Notes: generated by a model from the sequence alone, not told the origin. 56,282 nucleotides of DNA from Desulfonauticus sp. (GCA_030950395.1 JAUZRP010000041.1:1-56282); one strand, 5' to 3'; positions 3,925 through 10,366 are shown, counted from the stretch's first letter. Program-made: numbers and translations.

Positions 3925-4203
3925 ATGCCAATTTATGAATATCAATGCGATGAATGTGGGCATGTGTTTGAAGAATGGCAAAAAAATTTTTCTGAACAAA
4001 AAGTAGTCTGTCCTGTGTGCAATGGAGAGACCCATAGGTTAATTTCCAGCACATCTTTTATCCTCAAAGGATCTGGTTGGTACGTAACAGACTACAGTAG
4101 AAAGTCCGCTAACAATGGGGCTGCTTCTGCCAAAAATTCTAGTGGTCAAACCGCGAACAGCTGCTCTACTTCTTCTGGGGGATGTAAAAAGAACAACAGT
4201 TGA
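3925..4203 (+). CDS. FmdB-family zinc-ribbon protein
   Basis: A 92-residue protein starting [13 protein letters not shown]. Two CxxC knuckles (CDEC at 8-11 and CPVC near 32-35) form the zinc ribbon typical of the FmdB/CxxC_CxxC_SSSS family. The tail is rich in Ser, Asn and Cys, as usual. The family was named after a regulator near formylmethanofuran dehydrogenase, but its biochemical role is not established. The start is fixed by AAGGAGGTGG just upstream. A perfect terminator follows at once. A second copy lies at 49317. Confidence 0.85.
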
Positions 4204-4213
4204 GTTTTATCTT

Positions 4214-4237
4214 AAGGCAGCAGGTGCTGCCTTTTTT
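4214..4237 (+). terminator. Rho-independent terminator
   Basis: An 8-bp perfect stem AAGGCAGC/GCTGCCTT with loop AGGT runs into a T tract, 11 bases after the FmdB stop codon. Confidence 0.9.
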
Positions 4238-4273
4238 ATTTTTTTCTTTATATTTTGGGAGGCTTAATTCAGG

Positions 4274-5578
4274 ATGATAGAGCGTTACACTCGCCCTGAA
4301 ATGGGAAGTATCTGGAGTTTGGAAAACAAATTTAAAACATGGTTAGAAGTGGAGTTGGCGATATGTGAAGCCTGGCATAAGCTGGGGATTATCCCCTTTG
4401 AAGATATGCAAGAAATTAGGAACCGGGCCAGTTTTGATCTCAATAGAATTTTAGAAATAGAAGAACGCACCAAACACGATGTTATAGCTTTTTTAACTGC
4501 TGTAGAAGAGAAAGTTGGGCCTGCGTCCAGATTTATTCATCTAGGTTGCACCTCTTCTGACATAGTGGATACGGCCAATGGCCTTTTGTTGTTTCGAGCA
4601 GGTCAGTTAATTACCCAGGCCCTAGATACTGTATTGACTATACTCAAAAAAATAGCTTTTAAACACAAAAATCTCTTGGTCATGGGCAGGACCCACGGAG
4701 TGCATGCTGAGCCCACCAGTTTTGGTCTAAAAATGGCTGGTTTTTACGCAGAATTCTTAAGACACAAAAAACGCTGGTTAGCTGCCCTGGAAAACATCAG
4801 AGTGGGCAAAATTTCTGGAGCAGTTGGGACTTATGCTCATCTCTCCCCAGAGGTAGAGAAAATAGCCTGTGAAATTTTAGGATTAAAGGTAGATCCTATT
4901 TCCACCCAGATTGTCCAGCGAGATAGATATGCCCATTATTTTACCACCTTAGCTTTAATTGCTGGCGGCATTGAACGTTTGTGTTTGGAGTTACGACATC
5001 TGCAAAGAACAGAGGTTCTGGAAGTGGAAGAAGGTTTTAGCAAAGGTCAAAAAGGCTCTTCGGCCATGCCTCACAAAAAAAATCCCATCTCTGCAGAAAA
5101 TCTTAGTGGTCTGGCCAGGTTAGTTCGCACCAACTCTCTGGCTTCTATGGAAAATATGGCTCTTTGGCACGAACGAGATATTAGTCACTCTTCTGTGGAA
5201 AGAGTTATTATGCCAGATTCTACCATCCTTATTCACTACATGCTTCATCGCCTAAGCTCTATTTTAGAAAATTTAAAACTCAATCAACACAACATGGCTA
5301 GAAATTTGTATTCTTCTTTTGGTTTATTTTATTCTCAAAGGGTCTTACTGGCCCTTATTGAAAAAGGTCTTACCAGACAAAAGGCTTACGAAATGGTCCA
5401 AAAAGAGGCCCTTGCTTGCTGGGAACAACAAATACAATTTGAGGACAGAATTAGAGCAAGTAAAGAAATTAGGAGCTACCTTTCTTCTGCTGAGCTAGAC
5501 AAAATCTTTGATCCTATGTATTATTTAAGGCATGTAGATTTGATTTATAAAAGAGTGTTTGAGGATACCTCGTGTTAG
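4274..5578 (+). CDS. purB: Adenylosuccinate lyase
   Basis: Cleaves SAICAR to AICAR and adenylosuccinate to AMP in purine synthesis. The 434-residue product has the fumarase/aspartase superfamily signature GSSAMPHKKNP at 261-271. The catalytic histidine is in GRTHGVHAEP near residue 141, and TSSD near 93-96 binds substrate. Length and architecture match short bacterial PurB. The last 7 bases overlap pyrE in another frame, so the two are translationally coupled. Confidence 0.95.
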   Translation: MIERYTRPEMGSIWSLENKFKTWLEVELAICEAWHKLGIIPFEDMQEIRNRASFDLNRILEIEERTKHDVIAFLTAVEEKVGPASRFIHLGCTSSDIVDTANGLLLFRAGQLITQALDTVLTILKKIAFKHKNLLVMGRTHGVHAEPTSFGLKMAGFYAEFLRHKKRWLAALENIRVGKISGAVGTYAHLSPEVEKIACEILGLKVDPISTQIVQRDRYAHYFTTLALIAGGIERLCLELRHLQRTEVLEVEEGFSKGQKGSSAMPHKKNPISAENLSGLARLVRTNSLASMENMALWHERDISHSSVERVIMPDSTILIHYMLHRLSSILENLKLNQHNMARNLYSSFGLFYSQRVLLALIEKGLTRQKAYEMVQKEALACWEQQIQFEDRIRASKEIRSYLSSAELDKIFDPMYYLRHVDLIYKRVFEDTSC

Positions 5579-6138
5579 AACTTAAAAAGAAATTAGCCCA
5601 ATTATTATACGACAAATCTTATAAAGAAGGTCAATTTACTTTAACATCAGGGAAAAAATCTGACTATTATTTCGATTGCAAACAAACAGCCCTGCATCCA
5701 GCAGGAAGTTATTTTTTAGGGAAAATTTTATTTTCCATGATCCAGAAACTACCCGAACCAGTCTCGGGAGTGGGGGGTATGACTTTGGGTGCAGATCCGC
5801 TAGTAAGTGCAGTGACCGTTATTTCCTATCTAGAAGGGAATCCGTTGCCAGGTTTTATCGTGCGTAAAAAGCCCAAAAAACACGGGACAGCCCAATTTTT
5901 AGAAGGATTGGCCAATTTCTCTCAGGGCAACAGAGTTTGTTTACTAGAAGACGTCATCACCACAGGCGGATCTGTTTTGACCGCAGCAACTCGAGTGCAA
6001 GAAGCAGGTCTGGAAGTAAAAGATATTATTTGTGTCCTGGATAGAGAAGAAGGTGGCAAACAAACTTTAGAGCAAAAAGGATATAGGTTCTATTCTATTT
6101 TTACGCGCCAAGAATTGCTCGATTTAGTGAAAAAATAA
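5572..6138 (+). CDS. pyrE: Orotate phosphoribosyltransferase
   Basis: Transfers ribose-5-phosphate from PRPP to orotate, giving OMP in pyrimidine synthesis. The 188-residue protein carries the PRPP-binding loop VCLLEDVITTGGS (122-134), the N-terminal TLTSGKKSDYYFD segment and VRKKPKKHG near 97-105. The start is GTG at 5572, overlapping the purB stop, with GAGG upstream inside purB. Pairing a purine and a pyrimidine gene in one transcript is unusual in textbook terms, but the overlap is explicit here. Confidence 0.93.
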   Translation: MLELKKKLAQLLYDKSYKEGQFTLTSGKKSDYYFDCKQTALHPAGSYFLGKILFSMIQKLPEPVSGVGGMTLGADPLVSAVTVISYLEGNPLPGFIVRKKPKKHGTAQFLEGLANFSQGNRVCLLEDVITTGGSVLTAATRVQEAGLEVKDIICVLDREEGGKQTLEQKGYRFYSIFTRQELLDLVKK

Positions 6139-6231: not shown

Positions 6232-6816
6232 ATGTTAAAAAGAAAATTTAGCTGGGTATATTGGGTTATTGGATGCATTGGTCTGATGGGTTGTTTTTCT
6301 AAACCCCTAGAGCAAACTCTATGGCCCCAATATTCTAATGCTTATTATAAGTTAACCCAAAAATGGCTTCGAGAAAAAAAACTTTATTTTGGTTTGGATG
6401 AAAGTGTTATTGTAGATTGTCTCTTTAAAAGTCAGGAATGGAGACAGGGTTTTATACAACAATGGGTCAAAACGTATGGATTAAGTTCGCAGGAAAAAAT
6501 TGAATTTGCCAGGCACATTATGGATGAGAGCAAAGGTTATGTAGAATTTTTTGTAGCTATTTCCTCTACCAGAGAGGAACTGACCAAATTAAAATTGCCT
6601 TATAGCCTTTGGGCCATATTTTTAGAGCAAAAGCAACAAAAAAAAATTTATCCTTTAGATATACGCGAGCTTGAATGGGCCTATCCCAAAGTGCACAAAT
6701 TTTTTCCTTTTGTACAGGAATGGCAAAAATTTTACCTTATACGCTTTCCTTATGTTTCAAACTTTAAAAATCTAGTCTTTACAGGTCCAGAGGGTAAAAT
6801 TGTCTTTAGTTGGTAG
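6232..6816 (+). CDS. Predicted lipoprotein, first gene of an envelope cluster
   Basis: 194 residues with a short charged N-terminus, a hydrophobic segment and lipobox LMGC (C near residue 21), so it is probably lipidated and membrane-anchored. The mature part is rich in aromatic residues and Lys and has no domain I recognise. It overlaps the next gene (YkuD-family) by 17 bases, which starts a chain of four overlapping genes. This suggests a role with the peptidoglycan peptidases encoded downstream. Confidence 0.75.
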   Translation: MLKRKFSWVYWVIGCIGLMGCFSKPLEQTLWPQYSNAYYKLTQKWLREKKLYFGLDESVIVDCLFKSQEWRQGFIQQWVKTYGLSSQEKIEFARHIMDESKGYVEFFVAISSTREELTKLKLPYSLWAIFLEQKQQKKIYPLDIRELEWAYPKVHKFFPFVQEWQKFYLIRFPYVSNFKNLVFTGPEGKIVFSW

Positions 6817-8065
6817 AATTTGCTCTATCTTCATCTTCTTACTTTTTATGTTAGCACCTGGCCTAAGTTATAGCAGCTGGGTCCCCTTTTTAGGGGACAA
6901 TTCCTTAGGACCAAAGTATTTTTTTGTAGTGAGTAAACAACGTCAAAAACTATATTTGTTTTCCAATCAAGGTCATTTAAAACCTGTCTTTGCTTTGCCT
7001 TGCAGTACTGGCAAAGCAAAGGGAGACAAAAAAAAACGTGGGGATCGAAAAACACCGGAAGGAGTGTATTTTTTTGAAAAAAAAATTTCTCATGGACTGG
7101 ACTTTGCCCTCTATGGAGGAATTGCTTTTACTCTAAATTATCCAAATCCTGTAGACAAATTATTTTCTAAAACAGGCCATGGCATCTGGCTTCACGGACG
7201 AGGGAATCCCATCAAACCTTTCAACACCAAAGGATGTGTAGCTGTAAACGTATCTTGTCTCCCCTTGATTCAAAAATACATAGTATTTCATCAAACTCCT
7301 ATTTTAATCACTCAAGATTTTAAAAAAATAAAAAATAAACAAGATAATTTTGGGCAAAAAATTATAAAAAACATAGTCCAATGGAAAAAAAACTGGCAAA
7401 ATAAAAAAGAAAAATTTTTTTCCTTTTACGACCACAAACTAGTAATAGGAAAAAGATATGGATATCACTCTTTTGTTCAAAACAAAAAGAGATTATTTCG
7501 CCTATACCAATGGATAGATATTTTTATTTCCAGACCTAAATTAGTAGCTGGCCCTGGTTATGTGGTCTCCTATTTTAAACAATTATTCCGTTCCCCTGGA
7601 CATACGTCTTTGGGGATTAAAAGATTGTATTGGCTAAAAAGAGACCAAACCTGGAAAATAGTAGGCGAAGAATGGTATGGATTAAAAGACGAACAATTCC
7701 AAAAACAATATCTGGAGAAAAGGACCAAACAAATAAAAGTCTGGTTAAAAAAGTGGAAACAAGCCTGGGAAAACACCGATCTAAACAGCTATGCCAATTT
7801 TTACTCTTCCAATTCCAGACAAGGTAAGATAAAAGGCTTAAAAAACATTTTGGCTTTTAAACAAAAATTGTGGAGCAAAATAAAACCAAAGTGCATTACT
7901 ATTCACGACATAAAAGTCTTTTTACATCCCAAAGGTTTTAAAGTATCCTTTATCCAACAATATGAAGACAACAGCGGGTATTCTGATTTAGGGCAAAAGA
8001 CTTTGTTAATAGAGCCTAACGGAGATGGGTTTAAAATTTTATCAGAGCAATGGATAGCGTTATGA
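6800..8065 (+). CDS. YkuD-fold L,D-peptidase with NTF2-like C-terminus (Csd6/Pgp2-like)
   Basis: 421 residues. The start is TTG inside the preceding gene, with GAGGG nearby; it gives a proper signal peptide (about 1-25), which the next ATG would remove. The YkuD catalytic domain spans about 38-170: HGRGNPIKP with H132, then the nucleophile C146 in TKGCVAVN. The C-terminal 110 residues look like an NTF2/SnoaL-type fold (WLKKWKQAWENTDLNSY onward). This pairing is the architecture of Helicobacter Csd6, an L,D-carboxypeptidase that trims peptidoglycan tetrapeptides. With an M99 peptidase two genes on, carboxypeptidase activity is more likely than classical 3-3 cross-linking, though the latter is not excluded. 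Confidence 0.82.
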   Translation: MSLVGRICSIFIFLLFMLAPGLSYSSWVPFLGDNSLGPKYFFVVSKQRQKLYLFSNQGHLKPVFALPCSTGKAKGDKKKRGDRKTPEGVYFFEKKISHGLDFALYGGIAFTLNYPNPVDKLFSKTGHGIWLHGRGNPIKPFNTKGCVAVNVSCLPLIQKYIVFHQTPILITQDFKKIKNKQDNFGQKIIKNIVQWKKNWQNKKEKFFSFYDHKLVIGKRYGYHSFVQNKKRLFRLYQWIDIFISRPKLVAGPGYVVSYFKQLFRSPGHTSLGIKRLYWLKRDQTWKIVGEEWYGLKDEQFQKQYLEKRTKQIKVWLKKWKQAWENTDLNSYANFYSSNSRQGKIKGLKNILAFKQKLWSKIKPKCITIHDIKVFLHPKGFKVSFIQQYEDNSGYSDLGQKTLLIEPNGDGFKILSEQWIAL

Positions 8066-8760
8066 AAAAAAATGACCTTTATTATAACATTATTATCCTA
8101 AAAGACGACAGTCCGGTTAAAACCTTTCGCTTAAAAGTTAAAATAATAAAATTTATTCCTATCTTGATAATCGCTTTATTTACTTATGCGGTATTGGGGA
8201 CTATTTATTTTTATAAATCAAGTCAAAAATATCACTCCTGTCTAAAATTATTAGCTCAAAAAGAAAAGGATTTAAACAAATTACGATTTGAATTGTCTCG
8301 GTTGAAGAATGTAAAAAAATTCCTAGATAAGTACGACGAAGATTACTTAAATAAGCTCATCGCAGGATCTGGACAAAATCTAAACCAGAACAAAATAGAT
8401 TTAAACCAAATTTTTGCCAAAAAAAACTTAAATTTTGTTAAGATAAACAACATACAATGGCTAAAGGACGACAATTTTTTTGTCTTGCGCTTTGAATTAA
8501 ATAATCTAGAACCAACCAAAGAAATAAAAGGTAAAGTAGAAATTTCCCTAATTACCAGAGATGGTAGTTGTTATCCTTTAAATATTCAAAATAAGAATTT
8601 AAAATTTTCTATAACCCGTTTTAAAGTAGTGCAAATTCGCTTTAAACTGCCAAGATATATTAAAGAAAAGGACGTATTTGGTATTAGATTAACCGTAAAA
8701 GACAAACAGGAGCAAGTTGTTTTTTGTGAAACCTATCCTTTGGTTAATATTTCTTTATAA
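8062..8760 (+). CDS. Membrane-anchored coiled-coil protein of the envelope cluster
   Basis: 232 residues from the ATG at 8062, which forms an ATGA overlap with the YkuD stop. Another ATG lies four codons upstream at 8050. A basic cytoplasmic end is followed by one membrane helix (roughly 27-47), then a Lys/Glu/Leu-rich probable coiled coil (about 55-95) and a beta-rich C-terminal domain (about 120-232). No family is recognised. Bitopic topology between two peptidoglycan hydrolases suggests a scaffold or localisation factor, comparable in position but not evidently in sequence to Helicobacter Csd5 or Csd7. The 3' end overlaps the M99 gene by up to 44 bases. Confidence 0.7.
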   Translation: MKKNDLYYNIIILKDDSPVKTFRLKVKIIKFIPILIIALFTYAVLGTIYFYKSSQKYHSCLKLLAQKEKDLNKLRFELSRLKNVKKFLDKYDEDYLNKLIAGSGQNLNQNKIDLNQIFAKKNLNFVKINNIQWLKDDNFFVLRFELNNLEPTKEIKGKVEISLITRDGSCYPLNIQNKNLKFSITRFKVVQIRFKLPRYIKEKDVFGIRLTVKDKQEQVVFCETYPLVNISL

Positions 8761-10366
8761 TTTCATCTTATTACCCACAGCATTTGCGTCTGTTGGAATT
8801 TTTTTTAAAAATACTTTTTTTCCCCTAAAAATTTATTACCTAAAAGGGGAAAACCCAGGCCCTACCCTAATGATTCAGGGAGGTATTCAAGGAGATGAAT
8901 TAAGCGGAATAATTTGTGCTCAACTTTTAACCAGAGCCAAAGTTAAAAAAGGGAATTTAATTATCGTCCCAAGAGCCAACTGGCCAGCATTGTTTTTATT
9001 TAAACGCCAATTAAACGTAGATCTAAACAGGCGTTTTGATAAACATTATGCAGCCTTTTACGAAGATACCCTGGCCAAGGCCATTTTTTACTTAGCTAGT
9101 TTAAGTCAAGGCCTAATTCACCTCCACGAAGGCAGTGGTTTTTACTCTGCTGTTTACATCAATCAACTCCGTAATCCAAAACGTTATGGCCAAGCAGTAA
9201 TTATTGACGATAAAAACTATAACAATATTAATTTAGCCAACCTGGCTAAAGATGTTTTAAAAGAAATAAATCCTATAGTTTTGCCACAAAAATATAAATT
9301 TTCTCTGTTTAACATGATGACTTTTTCCCCCAATACTCTTTATCCAGAACAAAAAAAATCTCTTACCTATAATGTATTAAAAAATTATTCCAAACCAGCC
9401 TTTGCCATAGAAGTCAGTAAACACATAAAGCAATTGGATTGGAAAGTAAAGTACATGCTTAAAACTGTGCAAAAATTTTGTCATAAATTAGGAGTGGATA
9501 TATTTATATGCTGGGATAAACAAACAGATTCCTTAGTAAAAAATTGGTTTAAACAAAAAATTAGTTTAAAGATAATTCCTAAAAATAAATATGTATATCA
9601 ATTGAAGATTGTTAAAGAGTCTGATCACAACAATATGTCCCAAGTTGGACTCCAGTTTGGAGATATAGATATAGACTTAAACAATAATGAGGTCATTTTT
9701 TTTCCCTGGGAGGATAAGTTTATAAAAATTATTATAGATGGAAAAGTTGTAAAAACATATAAACTAAAACGTAGCGTATTTAATATTCGCAAAAGTAAAT
9801 ATCCTATCCTGCTTTATAGCGTTGATGGGAAAATTCATTATGCATTTCCCCAAGAACACATACAATTATACAAAGGACAAACTTTGATAGTCTATGGTTT
9901 ATGGCCAAATACAGGTGAAGTCATTAATATCAAAGGATATGCTCCTATCAATGCCCTCTCAAACACGGGTCAGGATATAAACGAACCAATTTATCTGTTA
10001 AAAGCAGCTTTTTTGCCTAAGTATATAAAAAATTTAAAAAATAAAGCCTGGAGTTTTGAAATCGTCAGAGAAACAAAAAATCTTCCACCCTACAAATGGA
10101 TTGTAGAAGTAAAAGAACCTAAATTAAACACCATAATCTTTTCCAATAAAAATGATATCTTTTCCATAAATAACACAAAATTAAAATCTGGCCACTACCA
10201 AATAACTATCTATCCAGACAGTTTTTTTATTCTCCTGGATAAAAATCCCATTCCCTATTATAATCAAGACATCATCTACTTTTCTCCGGGAGCACATCAG
10301 ATCTCCGTTAGAAACAATAAAACATTTGATTTAATCAAAACTTACAACATTGCAGTTACTCCCTAA
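8717..10366 (+). CDS. M99-family zinc D,L-carboxypeptidase (Csd4/Pgp1-like)
   Basis: 549 residues with a signal peptide ending near TAFAS. The residue pattern is that of Csd4: a Q58-x2-E61 pair in GGIQGDE replaces the usual HxxE zinc motif, H137 lies in HLHEGSG, and E232 in FAIEVSKHI is the catalytic base. The spacing parallels Csd4 Q46, E49, H128 and E222 (from memory). The long C-terminal part looks beta-rich, as expected for the two Ig-like domains of the family. It should trim tripeptides to dipeptides in periplasmic peptidoglycan. Start uncertain: TTG 8717 (AGGAG 4 bases upstream) or GTG 8726. Both lie inside the previous gene, giving a 35-44 base overlap. Confidence 0.82.
   Translation: MFFVKPILWLIFLYNFILLPTAFASVGIFFKNTFFPLKIYYLKGENPGPTLMIQGGIQGDELSGIICAQLLTRAKVKKGNLIIVPRANWPALFLFKRQLNVDLNRRFDKHYAAFYEDTLAKAIFYLASLSQGLIHLHEGSGFYSAVYINQLRNPKRYGQAVIIDDKNYNNINLANLAKDVLKEINPIVLPQKYKFSLFNMMTFSPNTLYPEQKKSLTYNVLKNYSKPAFAIEVSKHIKQLDWKVKYMLKTVQKFCHKLGVDIFICWDKQTDSLVKNWFKQKISLKIIPKNKYVYQLKIVKESDHNNMSQVGLQFGDIDIDLNNNEVIFFPWEDKFIKIIIDGKVVKTYKLKRSVFNIRKSKYPILLYSVDGKIHYAFPQEHIQLYKGQTLIVYGLWPNTGEVINIKGYAPINALSNTGQDINEPIYLLKAAFLPKYIKNLKNKAWSFEIVRETKNLPPYKWIVEVKEPKLNTIIFSNKNDIFSINNTKLKSGHYQITIYPDSFFILLDKNPIPYYNQDIIYFSPGAHQISVRNNKTFDLIKTYNIAVTP

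Follow-up and report, generated by a model that had tools for sequence, protein, structure and literature searches.

Do the four overlapping genes at positions 6232 to 10366 of a 56,282-nucleotide stretch of DNA from Desulfonauticus sp. (GCA_030950395.1 JAUZRP010000041.1:1-56282) work together to trim the cell wall and bend the cell? The stretch, analyzed at its whole length and called the window here, is contig C109 of a 2.2-Mb genome. The initial annotation had seen in these genes, named P1 to P4 below, a Helicobacter-like cell-shape module (Csd6/Pgp2 plus Csd4/Pgp1) that might be the curvature machinery of the Desulfovibrionales. In Campylobacterota, the genes for Csd6/Pgp2 and Csd4/Pgp1 are encoded apart. 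We found that the window holds a deeply conserved operon, in which two known kinds of shape enzyme are joined to an undescribed membrane protein. We give a probability of roughly 0.6 to the reading that this is an operon for trimming peptidoglycan stem peptides, with P3 positioning the enzymes and local trimming helping curvature.

All four genes lie on the plus strand. P1 (6232 to 6816), the first gene of the cluster, encodes a small lipoprotein of 194 amino acids (aa) with a lipobox, LMGC, at residues 18 to 21, and P2 (6800 to 8065) encodes a secreted YkuD enzyme of the L,D-carboxypeptidase type (421 aa) with two C-terminal NTF2 (Cds6_C) domains. P3 (8062 to 8760) is a membrane protein of 232 to 236 aa with a short cytoplasmic N terminus, a transmembrane segment, a helix of ~65 residues, and a periplasmic immunoglobulin (Ig)-like beta-sandwich. 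P4 (8717 to 10366) is a secreted M99 zinc peptidase of the D,L-carboxypeptidase type (~549 aa), which belongs to what we call the operon lineage and has an extra C-terminal beta domain (~466 to 549). P1 and P2 overlap by 17 bp (P1 stop at 6816 and P2 TTG start at 6800), P2 and P3 share an ATGA start/stop overlap (P2 stop at 8065 and P3 ATG at 8062), and P3 and P4 overlap by 35 to 44 bp (P3 stop at 8760 and P4 start at TTG 8717 or GTG 8726). The P3 open reading frame (ORF) is open from 8050, and its ATG at 8062 is backed by orthologs; for P4, GTG 8726, which is aligned with ortholog starts, is more likely to be the start than TTG 8717. Because of these overlaps, the four head-to-tail genes indicate one operon. 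The ORF coordinates confirmed the initial annotation in its four overlapping frames and their strand, and the overlaps bear out its single operon including a lipoprotein and a membrane coiled-coil protein. Scans for promoters and terminators stayed near the shuffle level and gave no usable signal.

We surveyed 150 genomes of the order, 247 genomes across the phylum, 30 M99 loci outside the order, and 48 named loci from a public genome collection. Counted from gene coordinates, YkuD stands beside M99 in 45 of the 47 order genomes with operon-type M99, and the two exceptions are one contig end and one YkuD gene on another contig. Since the same overlapping gene order recurs at this rate, a chance arrangement is rejected. 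YkuD-P3-M99 was present in nearly all of the 48 named loci; P3 was missing in three Desulfohalobiaceae metagenome-assembled genomes (MAGs) and one record labeled Desulfobacterales. M99 was found in 51 of the 247 genomes across the phylum, and YkuD was adjacent in 23 of the 30 M99 loci outside the order, several of which are also beside purB or pyrE. Of these 23 loci, 12 had P3 in the slot by a first-pass profile, and 17 were counted after iteration; the iterated profile also matched two P2 proteins, and the extra P3 matches are treated with caution. The module is thus not a trait of curved Desulfovibrionales, as had been proposed, but is found phylum-wide. Besides, a MAG assigned to Cloacimonadota carries an NTF2-YkuD-NTF2 protein beside an M99 protein (contig L119:1041-4350), for which mis-binning is possible.

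P4 matched the Pfam model Peptidase_M99 (PF17033) at 98.2 bits (7.2e-28), against a curated cutoff of 27, and a sequence search of the PDB returned Csd4 (4q6m, 1.2e-21). Its AlphaFold model (predicted local distance difference test score [pLDDT], 84.2; predicted template modeling score [pTM], 0.85) had Csd4 as the best Foldseek match (9e-21, versus 1e-8 for the next family), and 4wcm, among the Foldseek matches, is the Gln46His variant of Csd4. Structural alignment with VIA-align gave a Z score of 30.0 to Csd4 4wcl, with 361 aligned residues at 22% identity, in comparison with 22.0 for the AstE/AspA family. Residues 36 to 466 of the model matched residues 19 to 438 of the Csd4 chain, so that all of Csd4 was covered, and the ~80 additional beta residues at the P4 C terminus (466 to 549) lie beyond this match. 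The root mean square deviation was high (14.9), and therefore the domain orientations differ between the P4 model and Csd4. The residues singled out at the outset (Q58-x2-E61, H137, and E232) were read correctly: they align with Csd4 Q46, E49, H128, and E222, and P4 R97, N104, and R105 align with Csd4 R86, N93, and R94. These positions, to which we assign zinc, catalytic, and substrate roles as we take them to be in Csd4, were kept throughout the 67 operon-type rows from the order, apart from one exception at Q. With its catalytic residues intact, P4 likely cuts tripeptides to dipeptides, a predicted activity that is the one described for Pgp1 (PMC10151779). Among named records, Desulfonauticus sp. 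38_4375 has the M99 nearest to P4 (L114; 69% in the best segment). M99 is spread over several reading frames in this strain (L114:8001-9108) and in Desulfothermus okinawensis (L116:6731-9363), where YkuD is affected too; the split frames reflect either draft sequencing errors or decay.

M99 occurs in 90 of the 150 order genomes and falls into two kinds, 43 matching the Pfam model at ~1e-75 to 1e-89 and 47 at ~1e-20 to 1e-38. No genome among the 150 had both kinds, and YkuD was next to the high-scoring (solo) M99 in none of 20 fetched loci. In a quick tree of 79 catalytic domains, with Shimodaira-Hasegawa-like approximate likelihood ratio test (SH-aLRT) support only and one sequence for Campylobacterota, Helicobacter pylori Csd4 and 23 solo M99 rows formed one group (support, 99). 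The operon M99 of the order, including the window row, formed a separate group (support, 100) near the operon M99 of other families. The Csd4 branch is long, and its position inside the solo group is not firm in such a tree. Because Csd4 groups with the solo M99 and P4 lies in the other group, the window M99 is best read as a separate deep lineage that keeps the Csd4 machinery, not as the Csd4 ortholog. The initial equation with Csd4/Pgp1 therefore holds for superfamily, fold, and residues, and fails for orthology. P4 resembles Csd4/Pgp1 in its fold over the whole of Csd4, its Gln zinc ligand, and all checked substrate and catalytic residues, whereas it differs in lineage, in its extra C-terminal domain and domain orientation, and in its place beside YkuD and P3. 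Operon-type M99 also occurs apart from YkuD-P3, as a second copy in genome G053 (L038:6110-8260) and as the only copy in G123 (L051:4982-6829). Short M99-like proteins of other families of the phylum (L173, L179, L180, L182, and L199) formed separate tree groups, and five M99 rows outside the order, not traced singly, have His instead of Gln as the first zinc ligand.

P2 matched YkuD in Pfam at residues 40 to 150 (5e-14) and Cds6_C in two stretches (7.8e-29; G000:C109:7361-7672 and 7736-8050). The domain types of the initial name, YkuD-NTF2, are thus right, and the single NTF2 domain that it implied is not; two Cds6_C matches were found in most order genomes, where tandem NTF2 is the rule. In the PDB, P2 matched Bd1075 (7o21; 2e-48, 168.6 bits), Csd6 (4xzz; 2.7e-27, 98.9 bits), and Pgp2 (6xj6; 4.3e-23, 85.0 bits). 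The proposed likeness to Csd6/Pgp2 therefore stands at the level of superfamily and catalytic residues, but Bd1075 is nearer. H132, C146, A148, W195, W199, W319, W323, and W418 of P2 are invariant in 19 orthologs. The motif of P2 is GC(V/I)A where L,D-transpeptidases have GC..R, with Ala in place of the transpeptidase Arg; this Arg is also absent from L,D-carboxypeptidases and DpaA (PMC8263019). As P2 has no such Arg and matches L,D-carboxypeptidases, a plain L,D-transpeptidase is rejected, and P2 is likely an L,D-carboxypeptidase, with a predicted activity of converting tetrapeptides to tripeptides.

Both NTF2 copies of P2 carry an invariant Trp pair (W195/W199 and W319/W323) corresponding to Csd6 W223 and W227, which line the NTF2 pocket (PMC4599014). 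Csd6/Pgp2 thus shares with P2 the YkuD L,D-carboxypeptidase and Cds6_C NTF2 domains and this pair, although it has one NTF2 domain instead of two and is more distant in sequence than Bd1075. Bd1075, the closest solved relative of P2, is a periplasmic L,D-carboxypeptidase with the same catalytic motif; it gives Bdellovibrio its vibrioid shape, and its NTF2 domain targets the enzyme to the convex face (PMC8938487). The pocket Trp of Bd1075 is matched in the alignment by P2 W292, at a position that varies (W/Y/I) among orthologs, and from the repeat alignment we infer that the invariant W418 is the second-copy counterpart of the Bd1075 targeting Trp. In contrast to P2, which has two NTF2 domains and shares an operon with M99, Bd1075 has one such domain and is monocistronic (PMC8938487). 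Elsewhere, the P2 frame of genus g12 reaches ~750 to 900 aa, with a long insert parting the two NTF2 domains (e.g., G112:C1:3363309-3365318). In family f4, a single-NTF2 YkuD protein stands beside a second protein ending in Cds6_C, away from purB-pyrE (L161:5396-8425 and L162:4625-7357); the second protein in L161 has TPR repeats, and P3 lies elsewhere in the f4 genome.

P3 was found in 105 of the 150 order genomes. Its AlphaFold model (pLDDT, 88.7) has two short strands and a helix at 30 to 94, which comprises the transmembrane segment and a coiled coil; the Ig-like beta-sandwich begins at ~125. No Pfam model gave a match above its cutoff or describes P3, and fold searches returned only generic Ig-like beta-sandwiches, so that no function is read from the fold. 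A scaffold or organizer is our guess, because P3 keeps a constant position and stays with the NTF2 part of P2 in genome G102 after loss of YkuD, and it fits the architecture. In G102 (L164:5603-7440), the two P2 NTF2 domains and P3 follow purB-pyrE, the YkuD domain is lost, and M99 is absent. Another shape system, Csd1/CcmA, combines an M23 peptidase with a bactofilin, and a single bactofilin and five M23 peptidases are encoded in the genome of the window. One of the latter (L211:904-1806; 300 aa, with a transmembrane segment and a coiled coil) has an N terminus weakly resembling that of P3. P3 may be an M23-type protein in which an Ig-like domain replaced M23, but the N-terminal homology, at ~15 bits in a five-sequence set, is too weak to call. 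In contrast to Csd1/CcmA, P3 has an Ig-like domain and not M23, and the bactofilin of the window genome ends an mreB-mreC-PBP2-rodA cluster (L169:7563-13419) and is not beside an M23 gene.

P1 belongs to no family in Pfam or NCBIfam. Its homologs lie between pyrE and YkuD in the family of the window, in G006, G048, and G073, and in a few others, and are missing from most Desulfovibrionaceae loci; P1 is a lineage-restricted partner. Upstream on the same strand (3925 to 6138) are an FmdB-like gene (3925 to 4203), purB (4274 to 5578), and pyrE (5572 to 6138), named from protein-sequence reading. The three genes also stand upstream elsewhere, both within the order and in several of the more distant families of the phylum; they are a synteny anchor outside the mechanism. 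In most loci examined where M99 is solo or absent, the YkuD-P3 pair lies behind purB-pyrE.

We propose that the operon would act as follows. P2 and P4 would be exported to the periplasm. There, P2 would turn tetrapeptides into tripeptides by taking off the terminal D-Ala, with its tandem NTF2 domains either binding peptidoglycan or directing P2 to a portion of the wall, and P4 would then trim the tripeptides to dipeptides. P3, anchored in the inner membrane, would most likely use its coiled coil and Ig-like domain to keep the enzymes in place or position them, P2 first. By trimming locally, the enzymes would leave one side of the cell with less peptide available for cross-linking, which would help the cell to curve. 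The order and overlap of the genes, their families and catalytic residues, the structural match to Csd4, and the deep conservation of the block enter this model as observations; activities, cut order, targeting, the role of P3, and curvature are drawn from characterized relatives. A wider version, in which P3 organizes the tandem-NTF2 L,D-carboxypeptidase and the non-Csd4 M99 in one complex as a curvature machine throughout the Desulfobacterota, and in which an independently acquired solo Csd4-type M99 replaced the operon copy in some genera, is tentative, with the odds against it.

The rival that survives best is a general role in maturing or recycling peptidoglycan, in which stem-peptide trimming would control cross-linking, resistance to stress, or the release of fragments, and curvature would be at most a side effect. 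The spread of the block over many families of the phylum, the patchiness of M99 among genera, the long linkage to the housekeeping genes purB-pyrE, and the YkuD homolog retained in straight-rod Desulfomicrobium all speak for it. However, the same straight rods are without M99 and P3, and the characterized relatives of these enzymes, Csd4/Pgp1, Csd6/Pgp2, and Bd1075, determine cell shape (PMC3310789, PMC4599014, and PMC8938487). On balance we consider general maturation or recycling rather unlikely.

The contrast with Desulfomicrobium concerns genus g14, which was identified from its DsrA: the best match was 2xsj (939 bits, versus ~776 for the next chains), which we take to be the DsrA structure of Desulfomicrobium norvegicum. 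M99, P3, and bactofilin were missing in all 16 identified Desulfomicrobium genomes, and a YkuD homolog was kept in 14. Desulfomicrobium cells are straight or ellipsoidal rods without the Desulfovibrio curve (PMC8069399), and, in the genus of the window, Desulfonauticus submarinus forms curved rods and D. autotrophicus straight to curved ones (PMC8860800, Table 1). The Desulfomicrobium pattern is consistent with M99 and P3 having a role in cell shape. Several points weigh against a role of the operon in curvature. The contrast comes from one identified rod-shaped genus, which is a single lineage and therefore represents one or few losses, and P2 alone does not track shape, since 14 of the 16 genomes keep its homolog. 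Besides, several genera have P2-P3 and no M99 (e.g., G001, G017, G022, G032, G079, and G085), and the module occurs in many families across the phylum, whose shapes presumably vary. The expectation that the cluster follows vibrioid shape is thus partly supported: the absence of M99 and P3 from straight rods and the curved genus of the window agree with it, whereas the YkuD homolog kept in Desulfomicrobium does not, and the presence of M99 varies among genera that keep YkuD-P3. From the characterized relatives and this contrast, a curvature role is plausible, and we put the odds that the operon contributes to curvature at about even.

It is also conceivable, though improbable, that the genes share transcription only, P2-P3 being the functional unit and M99 an optional passenger that acts alone. 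P2 and P3 do stay paired where M99 is solo or missing, and G102 keeps P3 with the NTF2 part of P2 and has neither the YkuD domain nor M99; yet M99 adjoins P2 in nearly all operon-type genomes of the order and most loci elsewhere, at the counts given above, and cutting by L,D and then D,L activity is the order known in Campylobacter from the Pgp2 paper. That P2 is a DpaA-like hydrolase freeing peptidoglycan-bound proteins, such as the lipoprotein from the adjoining P1, is very improbable despite the Arg that both classes lack and a weak match to the NCBIfam DpaA model NF040599 (2.6e-4), because that match scores 20.2 bits against an equivalog cutoff of 365, Bd1075, Csd6, and Pgp2 match far more strongly, P2 has Csd6-type NTF2 domains that DpaA, to our knowledge, does not have, and P1 is absent from most P2 loci.

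We therefore return to the stem-peptide trimming operon as the preferred reading. The association of M99 with curvature in delta-proteobacteria is not new, because a 2012 paper already placed the conservation of Pgp1 mainly among epsilon- and delta-proteobacteria of helical and vibrioid shape (PMC3310789). In the literature searched, which included few subscription journals, we found no paper on a YkuD-P3-M99 operon, and neither the operon itself nor P3 nor the tandem-NTF2 design appears to have been described. That literature also gave no explanation of the Desulfovibrio-type vibrio shape. The operon offers a short ordered list of genes, one of which encodes a membrane protein without a described family, and the group has strains that are genetically tractable. 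Within a single order, one M99 lineage taking the place of another would be a natural experiment on the role of each enzyme, and the shape enzymes of Helicobacter, Campylobacter, and Bdellovibrio would be tied to an ancient linked pair.

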